Source of the DNA: Muricea muricata
Taxonomy: Eukaryota > Cnidaria > Anthozoa > Malacalcyonacea > Plexauridae
Reading direction: 5' to 3'
NCBI GenBank assembly: GCA_963855995.1
Contig: OY979722.1
Span: forward strand, 5,146,001-5,210,000
Length of the DNA stretch: 64,000 nt
Shown here: one piece after another, positions 14,010 to 64,000 of the stretch
How the letters are laid out: every line of letters begins with the position of its first letter
How positions within the stretch are numbered: the first letter of the stretch is position 1
Notes under the pieces: generated by a model
The model's database searches: none
What the model was told of the DNA's origin: nothing
Seen by the model: only the letters and a program-made list of their open reading frames with translations
Translations under genes and position numbers: made by a program

Positions 14010-40730
<26,721 letters not shown>

Positions 40731-41861: not shown

Positions 41862-42833
41862 AAACGGCTAACCTCGGTAATTCCCTTTGTGATGTAATCG
41901 GAATCATCAACCGTGATTGTTCATGCGACACGACTTATTAAAAGGGTCAAAAATGCTGCACTAAGACACGGTGTATGACCGCAGAAAAGTTATCACTGAT
42001 GAGCAATAGTTCAGGTAATCGCTCGACGTTGAAGTTGACGTTTAATTTAACTGCTGTCAGCAAGTTTTAGGAGCGTAAAACGATCCAAAATTGAATCTTG
42101 GATTGAGTTTTAAAGGTCAATATTCTCTCTTAAGTTAAGAGTTGAGTTAAACCCGCTACGGATAACAATTATTTTTCAGCTGGAAACCCATGAATTGGCT
42201 GAAAAACAACACGAACGACACGTTATGGTGTATAGTCGTATACAATGACCAGGAATCGCTCTTAATAATACCCCTTGTCCCAACTACTTTTAGAGGGCAG
42301 TTGCTTCAGACCCCTGCACTAACTGAATCTTTTCTGCAAAAAACGGACCCAAGGATAAAACCTGGAAATTATACATATACGGTTTAGAAACTATTGCCAA
42401 TATTTGACAAATGCTACAAGCTATTTTACATTAAACAGTTGAAAACTTACAATAGACGTCTAGCTTGCTGTCATCAAGGGTAAGCAATGCGAACGAATAA
42501 ATAGAATCGTTCAACTTACTTTCTAAATTTCTGGTTGATTTTCTTTACTAACTACGCTAAGTTTCAACAAGTTTCATAAAGGTATCTAAGTGAATAAAAA
42601 CAGGAAAATGAATTAAATTCTATTTGGTAGCTAGTTCCAGGCTTTTCACTCACGGTCACAGCAGCTAGTAAGAATAGACCAGAGAACTCTATATAAATAT
42701 ACCTGGAACGATAACTTAGCAGCCTTCTTTAAAATCAAATTGAAGGTCGTCATTGATAACCAGGAGCTCACAAGTTCCCCATTTTCAAACGCTGTTTTTA
42801 ATCCTAGAATAGCGTCTTTTTTTATATAAACAT

Positions 42834-43440
42834 ATTTAATAAAGCATTTGCCCCAAAAGCACAAAATAAAGCTTATCTTGGGGGATTATGCAATATAAAT
42901 AAATTACAAAAAACTGATACACACACACAAAAAATTACTAAGTATACAAATACACACAGTGAATTAAAAGCAAACATCACATAAAAAAATCTTAAACATG
43001 AATAACGGCAGTATATAGAATTACAACAATACAGGAGAGAAACGACATGAAGAAATTATATATCTGTGAGCCTCATAAAAGAAATCAAAGTTACTTGAAT
43101 AGCTCAGATTATCAAACCATTAAGAATATAAAACAACTTCATTTGATCATTACTCTCACTCCAATAACGACCACACATCCGCTCAGCAGAAGCAAACAAA
43201 GAGGCGCGTTAAGCAGCGAAACGGGGACAGTATAAGAAATAATGTTCAACGGTTTCATTCTCAATACCACAGTGACAAATAAGAGATGAATAACAGTTAA
43301 TCTTAAACAAATACGCATTCAAAGCATGTGATCCCAATCTAAGGCGAGCATGCAAAATACTTGCCCAATGGTTTAAGAATACATTAAACCTTTTTTTACC
43401 TATCAAAGGGCAAAAAATGATTTAATTCCTTTCTTAAATG
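42834..43440 (-). mobile_element. 5'-truncated non-LTR retrotransposon (LINE) fragment
   Basis: On the minus strand 43406-43209 reads HARLRLGSHALNAYLFKIN, then CHCGIENETVEHYFLYCPRF. This is the Cys-Cys-His-Cys motif at the C-terminus of LINE ORF2 proteins, after the endonuclease/RT part. The frame stops inside the motif's tail and continues as SLFASAERMCGRYW after it. The right duplicate (51650-51690) lacks this segment; the flanks here (GTCTTTTT and GTCCTTTTT) look like a short target duplication. Confidence 0.8.
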
Positions 43441-44439
43441 CACTTAACGAGGCGGAAGTCCTTAATTAGTCCTTTTTAAGTCAAATATCTTCAGGGCGTT
43501 AAACAGAGTTAAAAGAGTTCTATTCTAGGGTTGAAAACAGCGTTTGAATATGGGTGACTGTTATAGCTTCTGGTTATCAAGGGCGGCCTTTCTTTGGCTT
43601 AAAAGATGGTGGCCAAGTTATCGTTCCGGGTATAATTACATGCAGTTCACTGCTAGGTATAGACACATCCTCATATTGCGATACGGCTTAACGCAGATTG
43701 TCACTTAGTTCAAACCAGGCTCCTTACTGCACCTAGATGCTATCATATCAAAAACTGAATGTTCTATGAGGTGCGTTCCGCAATCAACATGCATGGATTT
43801 CAACCACTGCATTAAGCCTAGTTTTCATTTAGTCGTAAATGTCGTCAATGTATCAAAACAAACGATGTCAGAGAGTATTTGGTTTAAATACAGTCCACAA
43901 AAGAAAAGGTAGATCTGGATTATATAACATCTCAGAGAACGTCCGACAGTTGGAACCAAATGGAGACTGGGCTTTAGATAACACTAGAACTACGTGGACA
44001 CAACGTATTAGTGTAGCTCGCAATTATGAATTAATATTAATATATTAATATATAAACAAAATGTAACTCCGCGTTCTTTGTCTCGAACCCTCACTAAATC
44101 AAACAACTTTTGTTCAAAACCATTATATCGTACTTAGCAACGTATAGATATGCTTATTCAAGCTTTTGCGAGCTCGCACAATAGCTCAACTGCACTAAAA
44201 TTCCTCAATGAATGCACACGCTTGTCCATACTACTTTCACACTATAACATGCAGGTTCTAGGAAACTTGGAAAACCTATCCTTTATTTCCAAGTAAATTT
44301 AATTTTCAACAATGAATACATTAATTATTATATTTATCTATATATGAATATACGTCAAGATATCTATCTTTTTATTTTAATAATATATACAGGATTAAAA
44401 TTCTCACTTCTTTTCGTGCGCATGCGAAGATTTTCTAGA

Positions 44440-44625
44440 GGTATAATAGGATTCTCTCGGGCACGCGGTACGCGGCGAGCCGTCTCTAGAGTGACAACAA
44501 CGCGGACCCCGGCCACCAGTAACGCAACGCATTACTGAAATCATTTAGCTGCAACATCGGCAAGGCAGTGTCTGAAAATCACAGGGAAGAAACTGTAACA
44601 GAAAACGACCGTAACTCAAAACCAG
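44440..44625 (+). promoter_or_regulatory. CpG-rich promoter and probable 5' untranslated exon of the caspase gene
   Basis: A GC- and CpG-rich block in AT-rich surroundings. Just before it are GCGCATGCG (NRF1-like site) near 44420 and GTATAATAGG (possible TATA). The block ends with a donor CAG/GTACG at 44625. It is conserved at 54330-54508 in the duplicated copy much better than the flanks (GGCGAGCCGTCTCTAGAGTG is identical), including the donor site. The first base of the transcript is a guess. Confidence 0.5.
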
Positions 44626-45497
44626 GTACGCGTTACAATGTTTTGTCAGTGGTAACCGATCGAAAGTATACTCACTGTGAATGGATTCATTTTCGAAACT
44701 ACAATAATTTTTCACCTTCCTTTTTGATGAGCGATATCACTTTTGAATGAAAATAAGATCGATTGATTATACGTTCGTTGGAGAATTTAAATCGCATTCT
44801 AACAAGCTTATTAGCTGCATTTTCATGATATGATTAGTATAGGATTATATATATTTGAGCGCGTGTTTTGTGACACTCTAAAAGCACAATTTTTCATTTT
44901 TATTCGCTAGAAGGTCAGTTAAAAACCTTGAAAAATCAAATAGGGAATCGCAAGTGATATCTATTTTATATAAAAAACCTTAGTTATCGAAGAACCCTGT
45001 TGTGCATGCTTTTGATATTCTGTTCCAATTGACAATATAATGAAACGTCTCCGCAAATCAGGGTCACGTAGTTTTGCGTGGAATGGAGAAATTATGCACT
45101 TTTCATGAGCCACTTATATTTTAGAAATTTTGCTCTCCATATGGCTATTATATCGTACTACACTAGCTAAGAATAATTTAAAATTGTATTAGTAAAATGC
45201 TGAGATTTAATCAAGAAAAACGCTCTTTCATGCAGTTCCCTTATGAATAAGTAGATGGAAAGCAGCGACAACTATGTCACATTTCTCTCACTCTCAGTGG
45301 TATAAAACAGGCCCAAGTGCACGTCCAATGTAGATGCAATTCATTAATGTGCATATTGGTAAGCATAGAAATATATATGTACAGTCTGTTGAAAATATCG
45401 TGCTTCTGCTGCTGGCACCTGCTATCACAAAAATGTAGATTCTATATTCGTTTAATTATCGTATTTATTCATTGTTTGTGCGTTGTGGCGCAGTTAA

Positions 45498-45930
45498 AGG
45501 AGCTGTGTCATATTTCACGCATATGCTTCTGCGCATAATAAACTTGAAAGCGTTGGGCCAACGTTTTCAAGTTCGGAATCCAAGATGGCGTCCTCAATGG
45601 AGAATGGAGGGCGAGCATGGTCTGAAATTCGATATTTCCGGATGATAAAAAAGCAACAGAATGACAAACTTCGAAGGAAATTATACGAAAATCAACGCTA
45701 AAGAATTTATTCGGTGTACAATGTATTTAAAGCATGGAGAATGCAAGAATCGAGGCGGGACGTAACCGTTGGAATTGCAGTGATTCCATCGCACATCTGT
45801 TGCTCTTGCATACAGAAGAAGGTAAAAATAATGCAATTTATGTGCTTTAATCAAGCTGAATCTACAAGAAATTCGTAAAATAGCAAGAAAATAAAGAAAT
45901 AAAATTTGCGTGAAATGTGACACTGCTCCT
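45498..45930. mobile_element. TTAA-flanked MITE inside the left duplicate
   Basis: Inverted ends AGGAGCTGTGTCATATTTCA and its near complement, flanked by TTAA (45494-45497, 45931-45934). The right duplicate near 62362 has a single TTAA at the same place (GGCGTTAAAGTGTCGC), an empty site. Confidence 0.9.
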
Positions 45931-46254
45931 TTAAAGCGTCGCATACCAGCAGTATATGTATACTCCAACGAGGCGTCTCTTTAGAATAAGCGCCTCACTA
46001 ATTCAAACTGAAAAGTGTGGAAATTAGTAGAATTGCAGTATAATATTGCAAATGCTGTTGTCATTTGATTGGCTTTTCCACTCGCTATCTTTTCCTTTCA
46101 AAAAAATGACTTAAAATCTCGGAATGGAATCACGAGCACACGTAATGTAATTGCTAAATCACAACCTAGCTTTCCCCCAATTGACGTCCAGTTGCGTCTC
46201 TGATTCTATGCACCATTTTCTTCTACAATTTTAACAAGCTAAAATTTTCTATAG

Positions 46255-46300
46255 AGAGAGATTCCGAAATGTTTTGGAGAAGTCTAAAAAAACTCTGCAA
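46255..46300 (+). CDS. Proposed first coding exon of the caspase gene
   Basis: Acceptor TTTTCTATAG, then a short leader, ATG at 46269 and the frame MFWRSLKKLC, ending AA/GTAAGT in phase 2. The caspase exon at 48001 starts with one base that completes the codon, so the join is in frame. The same exon, differing only at the last two whole codons, is present in the duplicated copy at 63022-63065. It is inferred from splice signals, phase and conservation. Confidence 0.6.
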
Positions 46301-47029
46301 GTAAGTCATCCATCTAAGATCTACATGTTTGAATATCGATCGTGTGTGGGTAATTGAATTTATAATATACAAGTACGGTAAACTCTGCAATATGATTTTA
46401 AGACATTTTATGACCTACAGCATAATGCAGCATTTTCGTTTTCTAAACTAGGCAAAAATTAAACGAGACACGCAGTAAAAGTGTCTTTTACAAAGTTACA
46501 AAGAATAATTGAAATATTATACGCACGTTCCAGAATTCCTTCGTATCCAATCATTGTATAATGTAAAAAAGGTATCCCAGGCAAAAAGCAAAAAAAAAAG
46601 AATGACCGAAAAAACCCCCAACTAAATGGAAAATGAAATGTTGCATTTTTTTCATCTGTGTTAAGAATTTTGACCATTTGAATACAATAAAAAGTCTGAT
46701 GGAGTCGCCGAAAGTCAAATTGTTGCATAAATGAATATAGAGAAAATAACAATCCAATTTTCTCAACAGTACATTCAAAGTTACTTAGTCGCCAAATGAA
46801 TGGTGGAATTAAATTCCTTTCAATTGAATGGCTGAACCTATAGTTGGCACACTTTACAGATTTTTCTTCAACAATGCCAAAATTAATCTAGCGATAACGC
46901 TCTTTTGCCGTGGATTTATTATATCTGGACCTTCGTAATAATTTTTCATCATTTTGAATAGTTCTCAACCATTAAAAACGTAGAAAATGCGGTAGCTTTG
47001 CCGGGTTCCTCACTGGCATCGCAGCTTAT

Positions 47030-47460
47030 TTCGATTCCGTAGACGGTCGGACACCTCCTAGATGGTCGAGCACTCATTATCTCGTTCCCAGACTGCTCTG
47101 GCTCATTTAGACGAAGTTGTATTGCAAATACAAATTGTTTCGACGATTTCCAGCAAGCTCGTTGTTAAGTCAGTCGTCTTGGCGTGCGATTTCAAATAGA
47201 TTAGGCAGGGGTTGGAATCCCTTCCGAGGTTTTTTATTTTTAAAGTTCGTCAAACTTTTTTTCTTATATTTTTTTACTTTTATACTATTTTGTAAGGGTT
47301 AGGTTTAGGGTTTGGGTCAGGGATTGGATTATTTAAAATTTTAAAAAGAAAAATTTATTAGTTTTATCAGACACATAGGCTTGGAAACGAGATCAATGAG
47401 GTGCTCGGCCATCTCGGAGGTGTACGACCGTTTACGGAATCGAAATTTGCGGCATCGCAC
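47030..47460. mobile_element. Fold-back element in the caspase intron
   Basis: TCGATTCCGTAGACGGTCGG at 47030 faces CGACCGTTTACGGAATCGA near 47425; arms of about 65 bp. The middle has GGGTTAGGTTTAGGGTTTGG, telomere-like by chance or descent. Confidence 0.7.
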
Positions 47461-47622
47461 AACGGACTTTGCAGCATTTTAACGGTTTGTATGTGCCCGA
47501 TATCTTTGAAAAAGAAATTTATGACAGAAATAGAATCGGATAATGGATATTTGAATCCCTCACTCGTTTATTTATGGCTAGAGCCACAGCGAGAGTGCGA
47601 CCTGATATATTATGTATAGGTT

Positions 47623-47772
47623 CAGTAGCAACGCCAGCCCGACATTTGGTCATGCAAACGCAAATTTAAATCATCATTGTCAGTCATTTCTTCAGAAATT
47701 GATTTCTTATACGGACTATAAACACAGAAAAATGTATTTGCATGACCAAATGTCGGGCTGGCTTCGCCACTG
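47623..47772. mobile_element. hAT-type MITE in the caspase intron
   Basis: Ends CAGTAGCAACGCCAGCCCGA and GCTGGCTTCGCCACTG; 8-bp flanks TATAGGTT and TATGGGTT with one mismatch. Confidence 0.85.
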
Positions 47773-48000
47773 TATGGGTTCTAAATTCCAAGTGAGCTAC
47801 AAATAAATGAGCTATAAATTTGCAGTGTATAATATATTCAAAATTCGTTTGTTCCAGTCTTTTGCGCCAACATTGAAGTTTTGACCCCCCCCCCCTGTTG
47901 GACGGCAGGCTCTGCGGTTTCTTGCAATTCGTTTATATTTGTATACTTATATACAAAACAGGAAAAAAGCAAATTTTTTAATCTTTTTTGTGGATTTTAG

Positions 48001-48775
48001 TTCCATCCCAACGGTCAAGTCACACTCCACACTACAAAAATACCAAATGAAACGTGTCTTTGCTGTTGCCGTTGTCAACGAAAAGTTCCAGTCTGAGCGC
48101 AACCATCGTTATGGCGCTGAAGTTGATCGAGAAAATATAAATGAATTTTGTCACAAGGCTGGCTTTCATGTCGACAAGGAGTTAAAAACGCATGACATAA
48201 CAAAAAAGGAAATAAAAGATCTTTTCAAGAGAGTATCTAATCAAGATTTCAGTCAATACGACGCATTTGTTTGTTTCATATCAAGCCACGGATACACTGA
48301 TGAAATACAGGGAATTGATGCTAAGCCTATCAGTGTTGAAGAAATCGTTGGTCAATTTAAAGGCAACTCCACATTAGCAGGCAAACCGAAGCTATTCTTC
48401 ACCCAAAGTTGCAGAGGAGAAAAAGATGATTACGGGATCATAGAAAGTGATAGAGCATGTCGATCTATTTTTCACCCCAGAGAAGCTGATATTCTGGTTG
48501 CCTGGTCGTGTTCATATGGGCACGCATCCTATAGAAATTGGATAAAGGGGTCATTCTTCATCTCCGCATTGATAGACGTTTTAAGCAAACACGCACATGG
48601 TACAAATTTAACCGATATACTCACTATGGTCAATCATGAAATTGCTTCGAGGAAATTTCACAAGCAAATGCCGTGTTTTACCAGTAGTCTGAGAAAAGCT
48701 GTGTATTTCGAAATGCCCAAATCTAGTAGATCAAAATCAGTTCAACCACCGCCCTCACAGGAATCAAAAGTGTGA
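48001..48775 (+). CDS. Caspase (main coding exon)
   Basis: Cysteine protease of family C14A, cutting after aspartate, in the apoptosis pathway or a related one. The exon follows an acceptor ending GATTTTAG and codes for a complete p20/p10 domain. Seen: VFAVAVVNEKF strand, substrate-site arginine in HRYGAEVDREN, catalytic His in FISSHGYTD, catalytic Cys in FTQSCRGE, and p10 motifs ADILVAWS and SYRNWIKGSFF. Joined to the 10 codons of 46255-46300 it gives 268 residues with His107 and Cys148. The prodomain would be under 30 residues, so it looks like an effector-type caspase with no CARD or DED. The linker between the subunits is short (about 25 residues) with Asp at three places. Oddities: SSHG where LSHG is usual, and QSCRG for QACRG. 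AATAAA starts 3 bases after the stop codon. Confidence 0.92.
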
Positions 48776-48783
48776 GAAATAAA

Positions 48784-50652
48784 TTTAATTTTATTGAATT
48801 GCCTTATATTGCTCACCAAAACATTGTATAGCATGGCAATTTATTACTTTTGTGTTTTCCTTATGAATTATTATTAGAGAGTATTTTACATATAATGTAA
48901 ATTATCAGCACTTGAACCTATACATGCAAGTAGTTTTGGCTTTTATCTTATGTCACGTAGTACAGCTAAACGTATTTGTAAATAGAAGTGTATAGAATTC
49001 TTAGCTCTTAAGTTACAAGTAAATTGTAAGTTACAATAAATTGTAAGTTACAGTAAATTGAAAAACTCGTACGTGTTAGTGTCTTTTCAATAAACTATTT
49101 GAAATCAGGAAAAGACTTGCTTGCCTTAACAGTTTACCGCATATTAATCAGCCGACACAATGCTTATAATAAAAAAGGGTTTCGAAAAAACAAAATTGTT
49201 TAATTCATTTTGTCCATTTCGATTGAAGATTTACGCTTCTTTTCCGACGTAGCTAAATGCATAAAAGACGTACTGAATATTGAACTGTAAATGGTGCAAT
49301 TAAGTATTATTTGAATTTTATTGTTGAAGTGTCCTGTTTGGTTTTGAAGTTCTCAAAAAAGATGAAGACGCCTGTAATATTTTAGTTATGTATCACGAGT
49401 TTTCTTCACTTCATAGGACTTTTTATTCTCTTGAAACTTGTTTACACTACTCAACTGCCAAATCTTTTCTTCGCTGGTTGCCTAGCAACCAGCTTTTCTT
49501 TGCGCATGTTGTCCTTATTGCTCAGACATCACATCTCTCCTTTACCTCTACTAAGGATTATACTTTATTACTGCTGAAAGGTTTAGCTATCCAAGGCGTC
49601 AACTAGCCTCATGGTCATAGGCCAATGGTCGTTCAACCTATTTTTCTTTTTATAACTTTTGAACATCTATATTGTTTAGAAGGTAATATGTATCGACTAA
49701 ATTAAAATAAAATCGTTAAAACTTTATATTAATATAAACATATAATGAATTTCAATGTTTGACTAGTAATTTGAAGTATTTTGTTTGTTTTTATGGAAAC
49801 CGTTGAGTTTCAAGAATTGTGCAAAAACGCACATTTATATTGAAATCATGAATATAAAAATGGTTATAAAAAATCCTTTAAAAATTGATCATGATAATGG
49901 CATTTCAATTATCATGATCAGTTTTTGTAGCCCGCGTGTAATTCCAAAAAATATTCTTAGGGCAAACTAAAGTCTAATTTGGAATGACCTAACCTTGGCA
50001 TGATGCTACAACTTGTTCCAAGCCATGATCCTAAATCTTAACGAGCAAATCTATATTCGCTAGAAGCGAAAATTTTACACTCACTAGTTTGTTCAAAGTA
50101 TAACATATATCATGAATATGTAGTAGAAAGACCACATATGGTTATAATCATATGACTTCGGCTCCAAGTTTAATTTTAGTCAGTCAGTATATATATAGGT
50201 CGTACAAATGTATGAAATTAGTTGTGAATTCATTGCACGTGTAATTTGATGTCGATTCTTGAGTTCACAGTAAAGGGCCAATCTAGACGACGTTTTCGTA
50301 TATAATATATGTAATAACTGTTAGCACCGACTGCTGAGGTTAAAAATAAATTTAAAAATTTCACTCTGTAGAATCTTAATTTTTCTGTGTTAACCACATT
50401 ATCTGCTCATTTACCTTGATTGTCAACTCCAAGTCCGGCAACATGATTTCCCTGCAATCAACTCCATTTAGTTAAATATGATTTACTTGTGGTTAGAGTT
50501 CTGAATTTGTGATATTTCAAAGTATTTTAAAAGCTAACTCATCCGTTCCAGAACCTGTTTTCGGGTTTAGCAGTTGAGTTCTTCGAAGAAAAAACAACTT
50601 TGGAAATCAACAATCAACAATCAACAAATAAACAATTTACTTGAACTGGTGG
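48784..50652. other. Gene-poor stretch after the caspase gene
   Basis: No coding signal apart from the X-box at 49473. Further AATAAA hexamers near 49034 and 49089 could serve as caspase polyadenylation signals. Short stretch of GTAAGTTACA repeats near 49020-49060. Confidence 0.5.
49473..49493. promoter_or_regulatory. Perfect RFX X-box palindrome
   Basis: GTTGCCTAGCAAC fits the X-box consensus GTHRCC-N-RGYAAC exactly, within arms GCTGGTTGC/GCAACCAGC. It is 0.7 kb past the caspase stop; which gene, if any, it serves is unknown. Confidence 0.45.
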
Positions 50653-51075
50653 ACAATTTAATGGACCGATTGCATTATGGACAGAATTTTGAAAAAAGTT
50701 GAAGTGGGAAAATTCATAACCACAGCATTGAAGAGCATCCTAAAATTAGTAAAATGGTAAAGTTTGGTCGCGAAATGTTGTAAAATGAGGAAAATATAGC
50801 CCTGCAAAGTTTGCATATTTTGTATACTTTTGTATTATGCACTGAAAATTGATACCGTTTTCTCGATGTTGGTATCAATTTTCCGTGCGTAATACAAAAA
50901 TATACAAAATTTGCAATCTTCACAGGCTAACATTTTCCACATTTTAGGACGTTTCACAACCAAACTTTTCAATTTTACTAATTTTAGGATGCTCTTCAAT
51001 GTTGTGGTAATAAATTTTCCTATTTCAACTTTCTTCAAAATTTTGCCCATAATGGAATCGGTCCATTGGTCATTC
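50653..51075. mobile_element. Fold-back element, relative of 29699-30200
   Basis: Inverted arms of about 190 bp including GAGCATCCTAAAATTAGTA; the centre GTATCAATTTTC differs from the other copy. Ends near TGGACCGATTGCATTATGGA. Confidence 0.8.
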
Positions 51076-52275
51076 AGTTGTGTCATTTTCATACTTTTGA
51101 AGCAGTCGTTAATTATATTCTCTTTTGTACTCGTTCGACATACGTTTCCCAACTTTCTAGGGTTTCGTCAAAAACATCTATTTTTCCAATCGTAGTTATT
51201 TCTGGACTTATATCAATCCCATTTTCGTCACCACTGTCGTGTATTTTTAATGTTTTTAACAAAATATCAACATAACCAACATGGCCGATATCTATGTACA
51301 CTAACACGCATGTTTGTTACATTACCGCTGTCCGTTTGTATCTACATATACATAACAACCGTAAACCATTCCAAACGTTAGTATGTCTGAGATCAAGACT
51401 GAAGTTTGATTCGAAGAAGCAGAAGCAAATCAAATACACATGGCGCAACATTTTGTTCAACTGCAGGTCACGCTAGTTCCGGGCTTTTTACTCACGGTCA
51501 GAGCTGCTAGTAAGTATAGACCAGAGAACTGTATATCATTATACCTGGAACGATAACTTGGCTGCCTTCTTTGAAGCCAAATTGAAGACCGCCATTGATA
51601 ACCAGGAGCTCACAAGTTATCAATTTCAAACGCTGTTTTCAACTCTAGAATGGCGTCTTTTTAACCTTGTTTTAATTAAGTCAAATATTTTCTGGGCGTA
51701 AAACAGAGTTAAAAGAGTTCTATTCTAAGGTTGAAAAAAGCGTTTGAGTATGGTTGACTTTTGTGGCTTCTGGTTATAAATGGCGATCTTTCTTTGGCTT
51801 GAAAGATGGTGGCAAAGTTATCGTTCCAGGTATAACTATACGCAGCTCACTGGTAGGTATCGACACATCCCCATATTGCAATACTGCCTAAAGCGGATTG
51901 CCACTTATTTCTAACCAGGCTCCTCACTGCATCCAGATGTTTTCTCATCCAATCGTAATCTCTATTCCAAAATTGATGTTAAATGAGGTGTGTTCCACAA
52001 TCAACATGCACGGATTTCAACCTCGGGATTTCAACTACAGGCCTGAGGCAAATAAATATCTCGTAAATTTTTAACTCAGCAATTATACAACACATCAAAA
52101 CGAACATGACGAAAATGTAAAAACTGGAGAGTATACGTTTTATCAATTAAGATGTGCAACCAACTGTAAGTGAAGAAATTTTTGAGATGAATATTATTAT
52201 TATTATTGTTATTATCATCACTATTATTATTAAGAATTATATTATAAAATGTTTATAACTTTTGTAGATGATTTT

Positions 52276-52860
52276 AGGTGAGTCAAAGCCAAACCCAGAG
52301 AAGTCCTGTAAAGATATCCTGGCAGTAAATAAAAACGCCGTTTCTGGAATTTACTGGATCAAACCCCAGTCCAACAGACCATTTCAAGTTTGCTTGCGAT
52401 ATGGAAACTCAGGGGGAGCCAGGGCCTTTGGTTTACCTTTATAAATTACAGCAGTTTTGATGCATTCAGCCATGCGGTAACCTCCTGTCCAGACTAGAAC
52501 ACTCTTGACGCCAATGTGTCAATCTCAACCACTCCTCCACTCAGAGAGTAATCATTTGGTGCTGTCGATTGGAGTTCTTGGAAGGACATTGGACAAGAGC
52601 TCATGATGAAGTCAAATATCAACAACTGGATTGTTTGTCAACCAAATGAAGGAAGTATAGTCAGAATATAAAGAGCGTGGCAACAGCTTGTACGGGCCTG
52701 GCGTCATATCATTTGCTGTGGTAGTCTCGAGCACCAGGTCTCCGTACATCATCGAATTATGATTTGTTTCAAGGAAACGAAGACGTATCCTGGCTAATGC
52801 ATGATCCTTGTGGCAGGTCTGAACCAAAAGAGGTCAGCAACCCTGGTGGACAAATCTATC
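52276..52860 (+). pseudogene. Decayed fibrinogen-related / lectin-like secreted domain
   Basis: Reading across frame breaks gives SCKDILAVNKNAVSGIYWIK, PFQV, a Tyr/Phe region, WSSWKDIGQELMMKSNINNW, IVCQPNEGS and MHDPCGRSEP. A Cys-Lys-Asp-Ile-Leu start with SGIYWI matches the opening of fibrinogen-C-like and collagen-C-like domains; I associate the NINNWIVCQPNEGS part with a family large in corals and anemones. At least four stops or shifts are present. It lies in a segment found only in the right duplicate. Confidence 0.7.
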
Positions 52861-53699
52861 TTCGCTAGAAGCCAGACTTCTACATGCATTCTGTAGTTTG
52901 TTAGATATATAACACAATAAAAAAGTCACGTAACTCAAGAACGCATAGACTTTAATAATATCATGCCTTCTTCACGTATAATCTCTAACTTAAACTTCTT
53001 ATATAAACTGTTAGCTACATTTGTGTTTTGAATATTCACTTTATAATCAAGGCAAAATAGTACATGAGCCCTTATTATCAAGGCAAAATAGTGCATGAGC
53101 CCTTCATATTAATACAGATTTTTGCGCGAACCCAGTTCCAAAACAATTTCGGTATAAACGGGTTATACTTGCAAAGGCTTCCAAACAGAAACTTTGCTTT
53201 TGGCGAAAATATTTGCAACTGAGGTAAGGGTCCTTTGGGGATCCTTTGTTGTAACTTTATTGTTCATATAAAGCATAGGTATTTTGAAAGCATTAAGCCT
53301 AGTTTTCATTTAGTCGAAGATGTCGTCAATGTATCAAAGCAAACGATGTGAGAGAGAATTTACGCCGCCCCACGAAAGAAAAGGTAGACCTATATTATAC
53401 CAAAACTCCGAGAAGGAAAGCCAGGTCTGTATTGTATCAAATCTCTGAGAACGCCAATTATATAATAATCAGAACTCATTCTGTATTTTCATTGGTGGAA
53501 AACTGTGATCTATTAGAGGACAAACGCACGCTGACGCCATTTCAACGACAAGCCAATCACTGCAGCGATTTTTAGAATTATCGACAGCCAATGGCGTACT
53601 TTGTTTTATATAGATCATGATCACGTCAAATGACGCGCTAAAGTCTTTTTGTCGCACTGCAAAGCTTATTTTGGCAATTATCTCACATTTTTATTATAT

Positions 53700-53895
53700 A
53701 AAACAAATAGATAACATTTTGCCGTTGTCTGTTCAGTTATAGACACCTGGTAGACGTCAGAATCTGGTAAGAACATTCGTGACCCACACGCCTAGGCGGT
53801 TCGTGGGCCACTTTTTTGTTCTTACCAAACCATGACGTCATACCGTGTATCTATAAGTGACCAGACAACGGCAAAATGTTATCTATTTGTTAAAT
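53700..53895. mobile_element. Fold-back element in the right duplicate
   Basis: AACAAATAGATAACATTTTG at 53702 faces its complement ending at 53893, with ATGACGTCA-type arms inside. The left duplicate near 43955 lacks it (AACCAAATGGAGACTGG). Confidence 0.8.
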
Positions 53896-54329
53896 GGAGA
53901 CTGGACTTTGGATAACACTAGAACTACGTGCACACTGCGAATTAGTGTAGCTCGTAATTATGAATTAATATTAGAACTAAAATGTCAATGACTTATTAAT
54001 TACCAACTTTATAAACACAATGTAACTCCGCGTTCGTTATCTCGAGCCCTTACTAAATCAAACACTTTTGTCGTTGTGGAAAGTTCAAAACCAGTTCTCT
54101 ACTGCACTAAAATCCGTTAATTGCACACGCTTGTCTATACTACTTTCACACTATAACATGCAGGTTCTAGGAAAATTGTAAGACCTATCCTCTATTTCCA
54201 AGCAAACTTAAATTTCAACAATGAATACATTAATTAGTATAACTATCTATATATGAATATACATCAAGATATCTATCTTTTATTTCTCCTTTCCTTTAGT
54301 GCGCAAGCGAAGACTTTTTTCCCGGTATA

Positions 54330-54508
54330 ATAGGATTCTGTCGGGCACGCGGTACGCGGCGAGCCGTCTCTAGAGTGACAACAACGCGGACCTCGGCCAC
54401 CGGCAACGCAACGCATTACTGAAATCATTTAGCTGCAACATCGGCAAGGCAGTATCTGAAACTTTGAGGGAAGAAACTGTAACAGAAAACGACCGTAACT
54501 GAAACCAG
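54330..54508 (+). promoter_or_regulatory. Second copy of the CpG-rich promoter and first exon
   Basis: Matches 44440-44625, including the GTACGCGGCGAGCC core and the CAG/GTACG donor at 54508. The NRF1-like site of the left copy is changed to GCGCAAGCG here. It would serve the paralogous exon at 63022-63065. Confidence 0.5.
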
Positions 54509-56359
54509 GTACGTGTTACAATGCTTTGTCACTGGTAACTGAAAGTATACTCAGTGAATGTACCCATTTATAAAACTACAAAATTTTTCACCACCTTTTT
54601 TGATGAGCTATATCACCTTTGAATGAAAACGAGATCGATTGATTTTACGTAATTTGTAAAAGAGTTTAAATCATATTCTAACAAACTTATTACCTGCATC
54701 TTCATATGATTAGTATAGGATTATATATATTTATGCTCGTGTTTGGTGAAACTTTATAAGCAAAATTTTTAACCTTAGTTTTTCAGTAGCCAAATTAATT
54801 ACTTGTTATTCACAAGGAAGATAACATTTATTTAAACATATTTCTCTACAAATGTAAGCTTCGCTTCTAATGTAAAATTCAAGTTTGGATTTAGCTGTTG
54901 GAACGCATGTATTTTTATGTTTGTAAGTGATAATTATTAGTTTTTGAACTCCAAAGATTATGCCAGGTAAATTTGAACCTTTCTTACAAATAAAATTTGT
55001 TGAAATTAGTTCAAATACATATTCAACTACATTTACTGTGTTGTAATGCTTTATGATGTATGTTTTTAACTTTCAAGTAAGTACAGTAGATCAGTCCCAT
55101 ATAAGTTACAAACTATTTTAATTAATCCAGTTGATTGATTTAAAAATAGCCAACATTTCTTATCTGATAAATATTTTTGGATACGTTTACTCAGGGACTT
55201 TCTGCAAAACACACCTTGTGATTTCGCTTTTCTTAAATAAGTGCTATCATCCGTCAATGCGTAATTGTGTAGGATTGCTAATACAGACGTTATAGACTCA
55301 TAACTTTCGTTTATTTCTTAAACTCTTAGGTTACACAATTTATATAATTGCTGATTTCATGCTCTAACTCTTTCTCATGCTCTCGGACCAAGTCTTTTTC
55401 ATGCATGCATTGTTACTTATCTCAATTGAACATCAACTAGATTCCTATTCTATTACTTGTTGCTCATATAGCAATGACGTCAGTGGATGTACTTTCTAGA
55501 CTCACTGATTATATAACACCTTCCAACAATCAAATGCTTGGGTAATGCGCTTTTTCAAGCTCCTAAATAAAAGCGCGCTGATAACCTACGTTAAGTGCCA
55601 ATTTTTCGCCCAAAAAGCATCTCAAAGCTAAAACAGACTCAAAATTAAGACTAGATCAAATCTTGCATGGTTAAGTTAATTTGTAAGTTTTGCAGTCAGG
55701 TGCTTTTTACGAGCTAACTTCTATTCCATGCACATTGATTTGCATATTAACACTAAACTTTGTGCTGTCCACGAACAATTCCACAAAACGTGAAACACCT
55801 GAAAAACTGAAAATTGTCAACATTTTCATAAATTTAGCGCTATATAAACCAATCAAAAACTAGCCTGCTTGCAAGCTGTAAAGGTATAATATACGTATAA
55901 TAATAAATGTTTTCTGCAATATATGTGGCCTCCAAATAAGCATTTATAGGATTACCGTCCTACCATACAGTAATATTAGAAAGGATTGCTTTGTTATACC
56001 AGGGATTGTAAAAAAATTATCATGATGTCCCAGACAAAATGTCCACCACCAGCAAATTGAGCTAGATTTCTGAACTTATAAACAGTGAAAAAGTAACAAA
56101 CTGATGTACGCTCTTCCAATTGCAAATTATTAAATGACGATTTACGACAATATGGAAACGGTGCAGATTTATATTTGAGAAATAAACTAAAACCAGAAAA
56201 ACCCATAAAGCAGTTTTAAAGACAAGAGAAGTATTATCTACTGACAGAATAATGAGAATCAATCAACTTTATCATGCAATATTAATGCCAAAAATAAAAA
56301 AGGAACTTTTATACAGCTGGATTCAATAATTGTTTTCTTGGAAGGTCGGCTTTGTTTAG

Positions 56360-56646
56360 GGACCGTTTATTGTTATACCTCAGGGGGGGCACCGAAAAAA
56401 AATTGGGTGGGTAACTGATTTTTTAAACCTCTAAAATGTTGGGTGAAGAAAAGACCAATGAGAATACGAGAACATACTTCAATGAATAATAATAGCTAAT
56501 AAACGAACGCAGTTAAAAAATCTTGCATTTTTATTAGAGGCTGGGTAAAAAAAAATTGAACACCCAGAGCGGTTGGGTAATTTTTTTATATATACTTTTT
56601 TCAATTTCCCTTCGGTGCCCCCTGAGGTATAAATAATGAACGGTCC
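56360..56646. mobile_element. Inverted-repeat element with 5-bp TTTAG flanks
   Basis: Ends GGACCGTTTATTGTTATACC and GGTATAAATAATGAACGGTCC-type complement, with CAGGGGG(GG)CACCGAA further in. TTTAG on both sides. The tandem relative at 59692-59705 has a single TTTAG, an empty site. Confidence 0.85.
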
Positions 56647-59217
56647 TTTAGAGCATGTAATTGTCACGTGTTAAAGTAACGCATTAAAATTACACCAGTC
56701 ACAGATAATTTTCAATGTCGCTGTAGATGACAAGACGTCCAGAATGATCTCAACATAGTTTTTACGTAATTGAGCAAAATATCGGGATTTGTCGGTGGCG
56801 AGCAGATGAATTATTTGCCCATGCCAATGCATCTCGCAAGGACTTATGTAAGGTTGTTCTTTAAGAGATTGGTTTAACTCCTGCTAAAACATGCTAAAAC
56901 AGGGTCATTTGTGTGTCTTATTTTTTAGATTTCCAAAATGTGTTTCTTCTATTGATGTTGGAATTTCAAAATTGTTTTATAATTATAGAGTCTTGAATAT
57001 TACATATTTAATGCCAGTCATATGAATTTTTGGATCACCTGGAGCTCTCAATGTGTGCAATTTAGTCGTTGATTGGCTAAAATTCAAGCAATTTCGAGAT
57101 AATAAGCGTTATTCTTGTGGGCAGCCAGCATAGAATATATACAGCAATGACTGAGCAAAGAAGAGAATTAAGTCATTCAGAGAATTAACTTTCTGTTTAT
57201 AAGATAACAAGAACATCAGAAGGTATGGTTGCATGGTTTTATTTTTATGTTTGTGAAACCAACAGGAAGTGCTGTTATTGCTTCATCCACGACTATACTA
57301 GAGTCTAGATACCCTCTGTTGTTGTACGCAGGTCTACTTTCATTTTTTACATCTGAGTATTCTCGTCGCTCGATCCTGTCTTTGAACAGTCAGAGCTTGA
57401 ATGGCAATGAGTGCGGTATCATGAATGATATGTTTCAAGTGTCCACTTTTAAAGCGTTCATGGGTGAGTTTGAAGAAGGTGGACTTCAGACCTTCTACGA
57501 TATAATGCAAAATGTGTATAAATTTGCCTTGAGTTCCTAATTTTAGTCTTCTCCCTTCCAAGGGAGGTATGTATACCTTGAATGATTAAAAATGTTTCAA
57601 GTGTGTTATACATGTAATACCATAGGATTGGCAAAATATTGTGTTTTATATATAGTGTTGGAATTTTAAGATCATTATATTTATATATTTAGTAATTATG
57701 TCCACGTCGCATATAAATGTTGCAGGTGTGCATGCAATAATATTCAAGGGTGCTTTAGTTTTCTGTGCAATGGAGTGCGTTGATTAGTTAGAACTGTCAG
57801 GTATTTTTCTGTTGTTAGCGTTGTTGTGCGTTGGCAACCAGCAGTATAGCTGAGCACCGACTGAACAAAATACAAGCCAATGCAGGCATTCTTTCATTGA
57901 CATCTTGAGTTATATTTGGTCTTTACAACAACGATTTAAATGAATGATATCGTTTTAAAACAATTACAAGGTCGTACAGCCATACATTTCTTTATTTCCA
58001 ACACCCAGGCGCAGGCAACTTAAAAATTGTTGAGGTTGCATTTGGCAAATGTTTGGAATAAGGTACTTTCATTTCCAGGCTAGAGGCTAAAGTGATTGTT
58101 CTGTTTAGGCGTTTAGTGCATTCCTTAAATTATAATTGACGATACATAATGTATATTGTGAGACATCATACAGATATTTTGTTGGTACCATGGTAACGCA
58201 TACATCTACAGGTACTTTCGTTTTCTGTTGGTTCGAGTGCGCTGATTGGCTAAAGTTGTAAGGTGTGTTTCTCAACAAACGGTGGTGTGCGTCGGCAAAC
58301 CGCAGAATAGTTGGGTGTCGGCCATGTAAAGAACTACAAATAAAGTTATTCTTTATGTAAAGTTATTCTTCATGTATTCTTTATGTGCAGTCAATATAAG
58401 TCATTATAATATTATACAAAAGCCACTGTCGGATTCAATGAAATTGTTTTCCTGGAAGGCTTTTTATATACAGAGCAAGCCTGCAGAGAAGATACGCATT
58501 AAAATTACACCACCCACAGATAATTTTCAATGTTGTTCGGCAGATGAAAAGATCTTGTTGATGTCAATCATCGGCATGAGTTTTTACATAATTTTCAGCT
58601 GCACATCAAGACTCAGTATTAAAGTTTCTATAAGAATATCTAAATCATGGCAGAAGCCACAGAATTGTTAATAAATATATGTACACATAAATACAATGGA
58701 TTCCCAATTGCTACAAAATAGATTCACAGCGGTTAGTTCGTTTATAAAAGATCACATAGACTACAATAAAATTTATTCTGATTGGAGTTCTGCAGGAATA
58801 GTTTTCCATAACGATATCTATATGACCATGATGCTGTATAGAAGTCACATTTCTAGTAAAACATTTGCTAAATATTATATCGCTATATGTCTTTAAAGTT
58901 TAGATTCCACTCATCTGCACAGTACAGTGCTAAAACAGTTAAAAGTCTTTCAGTTGTTCGTCATTTAAGCCGTTAAATCAATTTCTACTTTGGCATTGAA
59001 TCCACAGAATCTCCAAACGAAGTTTTTCTCTCTCTCCGCGCCTCCATACTTTTTAGCCGCCATATTGCCCGCGCTATTTAGTATTTACGGGAATCTGGTA
59101 CGGGCAGCAGTATAGATGAGCACCGACTGAGTAAAATAAAAGCCTCATTGACAGCTTGAGTTAACATTCGGTTATGAAAACTACTTTCAAAGGTATGATA
59201 TCGTTTTAAAACGGACA

Positions 59218-59406
59218 ATGGAGCCATTGCTTTATTTCTATTACACAGGTGAAGGCAACGTAATAAAAATTATTGATGCTAATCGTTGTTTGCGACCATG
59301 CGGTAAAAATTGCAAAGAATGCTTTGATATGCGAGAAATTGTAAAAATGTATTATCACGACGTCGCAGACAAAATGGCCGCCAGCAGCAAATTGAGCCCG
59401 CAATAA
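59218..59406 (+). CDS. Short Cys-containing open frame in the tandem block
   Basis: 62 codons: TGEGNVIKIIDANRCLRPCG, then KNCKECFDMREIVKMYY. The frame is also open upstream (YDIVLKRT) to a possible acceptor at about 59190. A diverged copy at 57950-58050 has lost the frame. Not recognised; likely a relict exon if coding at all. Confidence 0.2.
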   Translation: MEPLLYFYYTGEGNVIKIIDANRCLRPCGKNCKECFDMREIVKMYYHDVADKMAASSKLSPQ

Positions 59407-60241
59407 TTCTTTAAATCCTTCAAGACTGATATGAACAAGTAACATACTGATACACCATTCGCATTGGAAATTATTACATGATGAGTTACGACCATATGGA
59501 AACGGTGCAGATTTAAAACTGAGAAATAAAATAAAACTAAAAACACGTAAAGCAGTTTGGAAAGACAAGAAAATAATTTTTCACTGACAGAATAATGCGA
59601 ATCAGTCAACTTTTTACGTGATATCTCATTGCAAAAAATGATAAAAAGGAAACTTTATACAACTGGATTCAATGATTGTTTTCTTGAAAGACTTTATTTA
59701 GAGTGTAATTGAAAGGGAGTCATGCATTAAAATTATTACACCACGTACAGATAGTTTTCAATGTCGTTGCAGATGATACCCAGAATGATCTCAACATAGT
59801 CTTGCATGCCCAGAATGATCTCAACATAGTCTTGCATGCACAACTGAGCGATGTATCAGTGACGAGCAGATCAATTATTTGCCCAGGCCAATGCGTCTTG
59901 CAAGGGCTTATATCAGGGGCTTTGTTTAGGAGATTGGTTTGAAACGCATTATCCCGCTGTTAAATATAAGCAATGCTATCAAAAAGATAACGGTACTTTT
60001 GTGTACCAGATGTTTTGACAATGCCAGGAAAACTAATAGATGAGTGTTAGTGCATGAGTTTTATCATTTGGATTAGTGTTATCAGTTCTCTTGTTGAACA
60101 TGTACAGTTGTTTTTCTAGAGCTTTACATATTACATATTTGACGCGAGTCATAGTAATTATTTGATCAGCTGGAGTTCTCAATCTGTGCGATTGAGTACG
60201 TTGACTGGCTAAAATTGAGGAGGTAATAAGCATAATTCTTC

Positions 60242-60583
60242 GTGGGCAACCAGCATGCTGGAATATTCATAGTTGCGCAAGAAACGACTGAGCAAAGAAG
60301 AGAAGTGGATTTAGCGAAAATTTATTATCAGTTAATAACATTGCAGGAGCCTCATCCAGAAGGTGCGTGGCTGTATTTTTATGTTTGTGAAGCAAACAGG
60401 AAGCTCTGTTATTGCTTCATCCATGCACGACTACTGAAATCTAGATACTCTCTGTCGTTGTACACAGTTCTATTTTCATTTTTTACTTCTGGCTCTTCTG
60501 TTCGCTCGATCCTCACTGTAACTTTACCGATCACAATTAGTGTGTTTGAACAGTTAGAGGTTAAATTGCAGTTGGTGCGGTAA
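60242..60583 (+). CDS. Uncharacterised 113-codon open frame in the tandem block
   Basis: I do not recognise it. It reads EQRREVDLAKIYYQLITLQE, then WLYFYVCEANRKLCYCFIH and a Ser-rich end. A relative at 57225-57540 keeps FYVCETNRK and CYCFIH in one frame but then runs into a stop; the next part stays open in another frame (to FALSS at 57540). It may be a gene remnant or chance. Confidence 0.2.
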   Translation: MGNQHAGIFIVAQETTEQRREVDLAKIYYQLITLQEPHPEGAWLYFYVCEANRKLCYCFIHARLLKSRYSLSLYTVLFSFFTSGSSVRSILTVTLPITISVFEQLEVKLQLVR

Positions 60584-61928
60584 CATATGTTATGTTTCCA
60601 GTGGCATAACTCCTCACGAATAACAAGGCGAATTTCAGCGTAAGGAGACCTTCCTTGATATAGTGCAAAATGTTAATAAATTTGCCTTGAGTTTCTAATT
60701 TTCATCGCATTATTAATATATTTGACCTTGAGAGTGCAAAACAATCCAGCATGCATGGGTATGTCAGGATGTGTTCAAATTGAATTGGTAACTATTTTAT
60801 GAATAAATGACTATGTTTAAAAATTTGAAACATTCGCCATGTGATACAATAAGCGTGGAAATTTAGGGGAGATGCTCAAGTGAAGCCAATTAAGATCCGA
60901 TTCTTAAAATAATATTGTTTTCTCATATGTTATTTGAAATATTTTAAAACATTTGAATGAAAGGCAATCCAGAGATATATTTACACGGGAGCTACAGCCG
61001 TATTCATTAACTGTTTTCTCAGAAAAGCTTTTATTCAAAATCTTGTAAAGAAGTCTTTCATTAGAATTTACCTCACACAGATAATTAATTTTGATTAGTA
61101 ACATTACGGTGACATACTAATACAGATGTTGTAATTTGATTGGCTACTCTACTAGTTATCTATTGCTTGATAGATAGCGAGTCGCCGAGTAGCAAAGCAA
61201 TAATTTTCCGATTTCGTGTATTTTTTTCAATTCAAAGACAGTTTGCAACAGTTTTTAAGTAACCTAATTGTTTTAGTAGAATCTGAGATATATATAATTA
61301 GTTGAAGTCACTTCACTAATTTACTTTAGATGCAGTGATAATTGTTCCTCTGCTTCGCCTTCATCACCTATCTTGAACTCGTTATCTAATTGTTAAAATA
61401 ATGACGCTACAAGTGCTTAGCAGGACGTCGAGAATTATGTACAAGTTTTTACATATTAAAAACTCATTGTACGTTTTCATGCTAAGAATCAATATCAGTT
61501 TCCTAACTTTAACGCCATTGTGTCTAAGTGCTTACGGTTACAAGAGTCTACACTTATCCGTATTAAATCTATTTTATGTAAAGAACTTTAGTTATGGAAA
61601 AATCCGCGGCAAATCAGGGTCACGCAATTTTTGCGGTGAATAAAGAAATAATGCCCTCGTTTTCATTAGCCAATCATATTTTAGAAATTTTGCTCTCCAT
61701 ATATATGGCTATTATATTATAATTCATGCACTAAGAATAATTTAAAATTGTATTGTAAAATGCTGAGATTTAATCAAGAAAAGCGCTCTTTCATGCAGTT
61801 CCCTGAATAAGTAGATGGAAAGCAGTAACAATCAGTTCACATTTCTCTCGTTCTTAGTAGTATAAAATAGGCCCAGGTCCATGTCCAATGTAGATGTTGT
61901 AATTCATTAATGTGCATATAGGTAAGCA

Positions 61929-62216
61929 CAGAGTTGCAAAAAGCGTTCAACCTTCCTCCGAGTAAAATTTTCAAAGTTTGCAAACCTTCCTCAAAATGAT
62001 GTAAAGTTGGGCTTTCTAAACTGAAGGTCAGAGTGAATCTTGAGAATGAGCATGATTTTCTAGAATAGATCATCATCTACCATTTTTTTGTTATGTTGGT
62101 GTTTAGGATACATTATGCATGTAGTGTTTGACATGAAACCTTCCTCACCGACTGCCCATTTTGCAAACCTTCCTCACGGGTAATACCCGCATACTCGTGG
62201 CTTTTTTGCAACTCTG
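61929..62216. mobile_element. hAT-type MITE inside the right duplicate
   Basis: Ends CAGAGTTGCAAAAAGC and GCTTTTTTGCAACTCTG; exact 8-bp duplication GGTAAGCA at 61921-61928 and 62217-62224. The left duplicate has one GGTAAGCA at 45358-45365, an empty site. AAACCTTCCTC-type motifs repeat inside. Confidence 0.95.
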
Positions 62217-63021
62217 GGTAAGCATAAAAATATATATGTGCAGTCTGTTGTAAATATCGTGCTTCTGTTGTTGGCACCTGCTATCTTTGCAGGACATTCA
62301 CAAAATTTAGATTCTATATTCGTTTAAATGTCGTATTTATTCATTGTTTATGCGTTGTGGCGTTAAAGTGTCGCATATCGGCAGTATGTAAACTCCGAAA
62401 AGGCGTCTCTTTAGAATAAGCGCCGCACTAATTCAAACTGAAAAGTGTAAAAATTAGTAGAATCATACTGCAGTAGTGCAGTAGTATAGTATTGCAAATG
62501 CTGCTGCCATTTGATTGGCTTTTCCACTCGCTATCTATTCCTTTCAACAAAATGGCTTAAAATCTCGAGGTGGAAATATCGAGCTCACGCAATGTAATTG
62601 TTTTAAATAACAACCTCACGCATCTAATTTGGATGTCCAAATCAGAGTCAAATTTCAACACAGCATAAATTTCGACTTTTTAAGCTAGGGCTTCCAGGCT
62701 TTTAACTCTTAAAAAACTTGGTCACGAGACATGCATGGACATGTGATGTTCGCGTCTCAGAATAATTCTTGGAGCCTGGCCACAAACTACGTCTAAATGT
62801 GGTCTTAAGTGCGGTAAACTGTGCCTATAATGACTTGCTGTAATAAACTATGCAACAATAAAAACTTCCCTGAATTGGCTGAAATATTTTTACTAATGAA
62901 CAAATGAGCAGAACTCGAATATATGAATATACATCCCTTCCCACAATTGACGCGCTAGTTGCGTCTCTGATTTTATGCACCATTTTCTTCTACTATTTTA
63001 TCTAGCTAAAATTTTCTATAG

Positions 63022-63065
63022 AGAGAGATTCAAATGTTTTGGAGAAGTCTAAAAAAATTCTACAA
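63022..63065 (+). CDS. Paralogous first coding exon (MFWRSLKKFY)
   Basis: Duplicate of 46255-46300: same acceptor TTTTCTATAG, ATG at 63034, ten codons and AA/GTAAGT donor in the same phase. No caspase exon follows before the end of the window, 935 bases later; in the left copy the gap is 1.7 kb. Confidence 0.5.
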
Positions 63066-63135
63066 GTAAGTCATCCATTTAGGATTCTATATATTTGAAT
63101 AACGATTGTGTGTGGCTAATTGAATTTATAATATA

Positions 63136-63389
63136 TAGCTAATTCAATGAAGGTTGTCCTTTCAAACCTTAAACTCTAAGCACGCAAAGCATAATGGGAG
63201 CACAATTTAAGCAGCTTAAAAAGCATGTATGGATCCCATTTTTTTATAGGCATGGTAACTATCCCCTAAGAAAACATTCCACTCACAAATAGCTCCAATA
63301 TGCAAATCTAAAGCTTAGAAGTTGTCCCCATCATCCTTCGCGCGCTTAGAGTTTAAGGTTTGAAAGGACAACCTTTTTTGAATTAGCTG
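63136..63389. mobile_element. TA-flanked MITE inside the right duplicate
   Basis: Inverted ends of about 47 bp: AGCTAATTCAATGAAGGTTG with GTCCTTTCAAACCTTAAACT further in. TA on both sides. The left duplicate continues without it (ATATACAAGTACGG near 46368). Confidence 0.88.
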
Positions 63390-63489
63390 TATAAGTACGG
63401 TAAAATCTGTGATTTTATGACCTTTTATGACCCACAGCATGATGCACGAAGCTCAATAGCTTTTGCAGTTTTTGTTTTCTAACCTAGAT

Positions 63490-64000
63490 CGACCAACCTC
63501 GATCCCAGGACCTTTTCTTAAATCAGGAAAGGGAAAAGGCCCTGGCATCCGCTGGTCTATTTTGTAATCCCATTGCCTCATTCAAACTGTCAATTAAATC
63601 ATTTAAGAGTATAATTTATTCATAAAATACAACCGAAGAGAGATTTAAATCATTTAAACCCTTTGCTTAGTTTGTTTATGTAGCTTTAAATCACTTATTC
63701 GGCTGACTCTTAACACTCTTCGTATAAAGTCATATACGTAGAATATCCGTACGCTTCATTATCGGAATTTGATGAAGGTATAGGGACAACTTATGCATGT
63801 TATCAGCTCACACACAGCAATCTTCTAAACAAGTTTTAACTGTATTATACCTACTAAGCACTTACTCTACCAGATTTAACATATTACTTTATTTCATTGG
63901 GCATTGTAGTGTCATATACACAGCCGAAGATGTAGAGCCAGCTATAGTCCGTAGAAGGTTGCTTTTATAGGAAGTTATTTACCTTAAAGCTAGCTGTATT
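63490..64000. other. Right edge of window
   Basis: Similarity to the left duplicate fades near 63490. No open frame or repeat is visible to the end. Confidence 0.5.

Follow-up and report, generated by a model that had tools for sequence, protein, structure and literature searches.

A caspase exon and a direct duplication of the sequence upstream of it in Muricea muricata

Tandem duplicates of caspase genes are already well documented. In Mytilus coruscus, tandem arrays account for 16 of the 47 caspase genes, and 14 of those 16 are of the executioner type (available excerpt of PMC10967218). In Crassostrea gigas, the neighbouring genes Cg3B and Cg3B-like are duplicates of which one carries a deletion in the active-site motif, and the oyster Cg3A has the active-site motif QSCRG together with a Tyr that replaces the catalytic His (available excerpt of PMC7836458). 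Cleavage of the linker is described as the standard activation scheme of executioner caspases (available excerpt of PMC11121540).

The window analysed here, a stretch of 64,000 bases of contig OY979722.1 of Muricea muricata, shows nothing categorically new in comparison. It contains a caspase whose prodomain appears to be short, in a locus that is duplicated locally. The features of the locus are collected in Table 1. As far as the excerpts describe the bivalve arrays (Mytilus coruscus, PMC10967218; Crassostrea gigas, PMC7836458), the locus resembles them as a lineage-specific local duplication of short caspases. Unlike these arrays, the window shows only a putative 5' part of the second copy. 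The visible caspase shares QSCRG with Cg3A as described in PMC7836458, yet it retains SSHG.

Table 1. Coordinates of the caspase locus and its duplicate (positions in the window)
Feature	Position	Strand	Remarks
Left copy, visible homology	42630-46455	+	BLAST pieces to 46429, extended by alignment to ~46455
Inverted-repeat (foldback-like) element and adjoining bases, edge of left copy	42630-43813	+	Split by 42822-43475; matches 51472-52030
Left putative exon 1 (5' untranslated)	44440-44625	+	CpG-rich; no ATG; TATAAT at 44442; donor
Left putative exon 2	46255-46300	+	ATG at 46269; ten codons and two bases (phase 2); donor; frame joins caspase exon
Caspase exon	48001-48775	+	Stop codon; own in-frame ATG at 48047; PF00656 and PDB caspase-3 matches
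Right copy, enlarged by extra sequence	51472-63490	+	BLAST pieces to 63446, extended by alignment to ~63490
Second copy of inverted-repeat element, edge of right copy	51472-52030	+	Inverted repeats; BLAST match
Right putative exon 1	54324-54508	+	175/185 bases equal to left; 16 CpG; donor
Right intron 1 sequence without left counterpart	54771-61566	+	Holds two diverged internal copies
Right putative exon 2	63022-63065	+	ATG at 63034; 42/44 bases equal to left; 2-base gap before ATG
Window end	63491-64000	+	Hairpin-like 63491-63553 (by eye), then no convincing left counterpart (alignment)

The caspase exon and the predicted gene model

Judged from its sequence, 48001-48775 encodes a caspase domain in which the catalytic His and Cys are present. 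The frame of this exon scores 158.3 bits against PF00656 (Peptidase_C14; cut-off 21.4, E 3.2e-46), covering positions 3-233 of the 233 in the profile, and its match to the PDB sequence of caspase-3 has E 3.9e-31; both bear out the caspase exon proposed in the original prediction. The PDB search gave 206 distinct sequences at E 0.001, of which the best 60 were examined; these are named caspase-3, procaspase-3, apopain or caspase-6. Alignment with the PDB sequences places the His of SSHG and the Cys of QSCRG on the SHG and QACRG of caspase-3. Two Arg residues also fall on Arg residues of caspase-3, and these are presumably part of the basic S1 pocket that gives Asp specificity. A single-sequence structure model of the caspase has poor confidence (mean pLDDT 48.4).

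The nearly full coverage of the caspase profile, the aligned catalytic residues with the two Arg, and the short N-terminus of the predicted protein resemble executioner caspases of the caspase-3/6/7 type. A Pfam scan at E 0.01 showed no CARD or DED, nor any transposase domain, among 51 of the 130 frames of at least 50 aa listed in 40-64 kb. The 51 scanned frames are mostly of at least 70 aa; the caspase frame was scanned separately, and the frame at 45508-45726 (at least 70 aa) is outside the 51. In comparison with caspase-3/6/7, the window has QSCRG instead of QACRG, and in the PDB alignment the stretch from the catalytic Cys to the small subunit is a net three residues shorter than in caspase-3. 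The executioner-like assignment is one of sequence similarity. By analogy with the family, the visible enzyme would be a zymogen that is cut at an Asp between the large and the small subunit, with IESD as the candidate site, and the activated caspase would then cleave proteins after Asp through its Cys-His pair. Our reading of the sequence places IESD between the catalytic Cys and the small subunit, and we take it to resemble the site at which caspase-3 is cut between its subunits. In the PDB alignment, however, IETD(S) of caspase-3 faces a gap, and IESD is paired with VDDD, which lies five residues further along. IESD is therefore only a candidate cut site.

The gene model upstream of the caspase exon is predicted. 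The ten codons and two bases of the left exon 2 continue in frame into the caspase exon, and the predicted protein has 268 residues, 26 of which precede MKRVF. Exon 1 lacks an ATG in both copies. The left exon 1 contains 15 CpG and has a GC content of 0.51 compared with 0.36 for the window, and most of the 15 top 200-base windows by CpG count lie in the two exon-1 regions, with the others near 21.95 kb and 6.9 kb. Because TATAAT lies within the interval that the original prediction called an exon, transcription may begin inside 44440-44625 itself. The donor of the left exon 1, CAGGTACGC, agrees with the consensus at 7 of 9 positions, and that of the right exon 1, CAGGTACGT, at 8 of 9.

A tblastn search of the window with the 268-residue protein at a very loose threshold showed no second caspase and no other significant stretch among the best 20 matches; 48001-48775 was found at E 1e-174, and the peptide of the left exon 2 came next (E 0.025). 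With E 1.2, the peptide of the right exon 2 ranks behind two chance-level matches at E 0.53. Thus, the right exon 2 is known from the DNA alignment rather than from tblastn.

Extent and divergence of the two copies

BLAST comparison of the window with itself showed ten direct matches in a single order, from 42630/51472 to 46429/63446. The longest matching block has 966 columns (E 0.0), which excludes a chance similarity of the left and right copies. Nine of the ten pieces were aligned in detail after trimming the overlapping ends of neighbours, the piece 44959-44997/61567-61605 (33 of 39 bases equal) being left out of the identity counts. With the repeat element at the left edge excluded, 1700 of 1898 aligned bases (89.6%) are equal. 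These alignments indicate that the duplication is real, so the partly duplicated caspase locus of the original prediction stands; its extent, however, is wider on the left (42630/51472), and the visible homology ends inside the window at ~46455/63490, which had not been stated. Exons 1 and 2 both align with counterparts in the right copy, as had been claimed. Their splice sites and frame are intact there (across the copies, all four donors examined read GT and all three acceptors AG), and two of the ten codons are altered at the residue level (MFWRSLKKLC to MFWRSLKKFY), again in agreement with the earlier description.

At the left end the copies are 8.8 kb apart; by exon 2 the distance has grown to 16.8 kb because of extra sequence in the right copy. 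BLAST and alignment place the extra sequence at 52031-53289, 53415-53891, 54771-61566, ~61933-62216, 62617-62937 and ~63136-63389, and in some of these cases the left copy may instead have lost the sequence. Left-copy sequence at 42822-43475 and ~45500-45930 is missing on the right (BLAST). Within 54771-61566, two diverged copies of one unit are present, at 55962-57544 and 59295-60702, and their matching pieces are 70-77% identical.

Between the two copies of the inverted-repeat element, 458 of 528 bases are equal, compared with 1700 of 1898 for the unit (p=0.07). The slightly lower identity of the element would fit repeats that are older than the unit they flank, but the difference is not significant. 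Unequal exchange between copies of the element at the left edges of both units would be a possible mechanism of the duplication, and would predict a third copy of the element to the right of the second unit. However, the inverted arms start ~48 bases inside the edge of the duplication, which speaks against taking this exchange as more than a possibility.

The original prediction held that the introns had diverged while the ten codons were kept, and took this as a sign of constraint on both copies. The counts do not agree with this for exon 2. Its codons are equal at 30 of 32 bases and the aligned introns at 1031 of 1158 (89.0%; Fisher p=0.57), indicating that the introns differ through gain or loss of sequence and not clearly by faster substitution. 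Comparison of the whole exon 2 (42 of 44) with the introns gave p=0.22. Both coding substitutions alter the residue, and two or fewer differences are also seen in 368 of the 1127 windows of 32 columns taken from the introns. In neutral simulations at about the observed divergence, which ignore indels, 40% of the trials retained the ATG and a frame free of stops while altering no more than two residues; the share falls to ~21% when three intact splice dinucleotides are also required. The argument for constraint on exon 2 is therefore rejected. Since about one in five neutral copies in these simulations looks alike, a duplicate with 10% divergence that retains its splice sites and a short reading frame gives little evidence of constraint. 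Exon 1 is equal at 175 of 185 bases (p=0.018 against the introns, one of five intron comparisons and uncorrected), which weakly suggests mild constraint. The stretch upstream of it, 43814-44439, is no better conserved than the introns (452 of 511, p=0.74) and so does not suggest constraint on a promoter upstream of exon 1. Within this stretch, 148 of 160 bases are equal in 44213-44372, and 31 of the 41 aligned columns between 44213-44372 and exon 1 are equal.

Possible fates of the right copy

We lean slightly towards a head-to-tail duplication of the whole of 42630-51471, with later enlargement of the right copy. A short-prodomain, executioner-like caspase gene would have been duplicated as a unit of ~8.8 kb, the right copy would afterwards have grown by insertions, and a second caspase exon, intact or decayed, would be located at ~65.0-65.5 kb or further. 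The copies are adjacent and in direct orientation. If the duplication was a simple tandem one, the two copies abut at 51471/51472, so the unit would contain the caspase exon and the 2.7 kb behind it. The copy of the caspase exon would then start at ~65.0-65.5 kb, provided that the last 510 bases of the window are an insertion and that nothing else intervenes. This geometry supports a second caspase independently of the constraint argument of the original prediction, which fails. The caspase domain, the direct repeat with its order and the extra right-copy sequence are present in the window; that the duplication was simple and complete, and hence that a second caspase exon lies to the right, is plausible. 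If the right copy holds a caspase, the locus would be a further case in which a cell-death gene has expanded locally, one of the copies visibly filling with insertions.

The visible homology halts in intron 2, at ~46455/63490 and short of the caspase exon, and alignment of 63491-64000 found no convincing left counterpart (at best 64% over 56 bases, E 0.055). Thus, a whole-unit duplication must assume an insertion of at least 510 bases, and a truncated copy is nearly as likely. In a truncated duplication, a serious possibility though short of probable, only the 5' part up to ~46455 would have been copied, leaving a relic of promoter and two exons with no caspase behind it. Neutral decay would account for such a copy, as chance alone retains splice sites and frame in about a fifth of the simulated cases (21%, indels ignored). 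However, six further stretches of the right copy have no left counterpart, so that one more at 63490 is easily believed, and the hairpin-like piece at this junction (63491-63553, by eye) favours an insertion there, although truncation explains the same data. It is very improbable that another gene has been captured and is now driven by the promoter and first exons of the right copy. The right exon 1 is CpG-rich and kept (175 of 185), and the phase-2 donor is intact, but no downstream exon is visible in the window. When 51 of the 130 frames of 40-64 kb were scanned with Pfam at E 0.01, a single match was obtained, a weak fragment upstream of the right exon 1, and no result here supports capture of the promoter by an unrelated gene. 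We give scarcely more credence to an active right copy in which the kept CpG-rich promoter and the ten-codon leader would be spliced to a non-caspase or to a catalytically altered caspase that regulates its neighbour.

A further reading, which overlaps with the others, is that exons 1 and 2 are foreign to the caspase gene, which would be translated from the ATG at 48047 under its own promoter, the duplicate being non-genic. Since this in-frame ATG lies a few residues before the caspase similarity (it is residue 16 of the exon frame, and the similarity starts at residue 20 in Pfam and mostly at 21 or 23 in the PDB caspases), the caspase may alternatively be a one-exon protein. The acceptor of exon 2 is weak in both copies: its pyrimidine count is 9 of 17 in the left one, which 23% of AGs attain, and 10 of 17 in the right one, which 14.5% attain. 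In addition, a search outside animal protein collections found no relative of the ten exon-2 residues. However, the donor of the left exon 2, CAAGTAAGT, is strong (8 of 9 consensus positions, a score reached by 0.6% of 3501 GTs), the acceptor at 48001 is good (12 of 17 pyrimidines) with a matching phase, and exon 1 is CpG-rich and free of ATG. We consider the separation of exons 1 and 2 from the caspase gene rather unlikely.

Other features of the window

No RNA family reached its gathering score in the window, and one scan of viral contigs for relatives gave nine pattern matches, none of which was confirmed. On the plus strand, a 58-aa frame at 52268-52441 has a weak match to COLFI (fibrillar-collagen C-terminal; 20.4 bits against a cut-off of 26.2, E 3.5e-4) and is probably a decayed fragment, located in sequence that only the right copy contains. 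Nearby, 52851-52982 resembles 50046-50174 (66%).

Further to the left, the plus strand contains a single frame of 547 aa, open from stop to stop (26645-28285), with long hydrophobic stretches by eye and no Pfam match at E 0.1. The shorter frames at 25168-25446, 26217-26486 and perhaps 24406-24651 are similar to it by eye, which suggests local duplicates or relics. On the minus strand, pieces within 19585-34574 resemble an FtsH/m-AAA protease gene interrupted by introns, with Pfam matches to FtsH_ext at 34158-34574 (E 5.5e-5, just under the cut-off) and to AAA_lid_3 at 19585-19821 (E 1.5e-8). Hairpin or foldback elements are found at 47028-47446, 47623-47772, 50660-51067, 53702-53891 and 63132-63393, and the one at 50660-51067 has relatives at ~29.8-30.1 kb.
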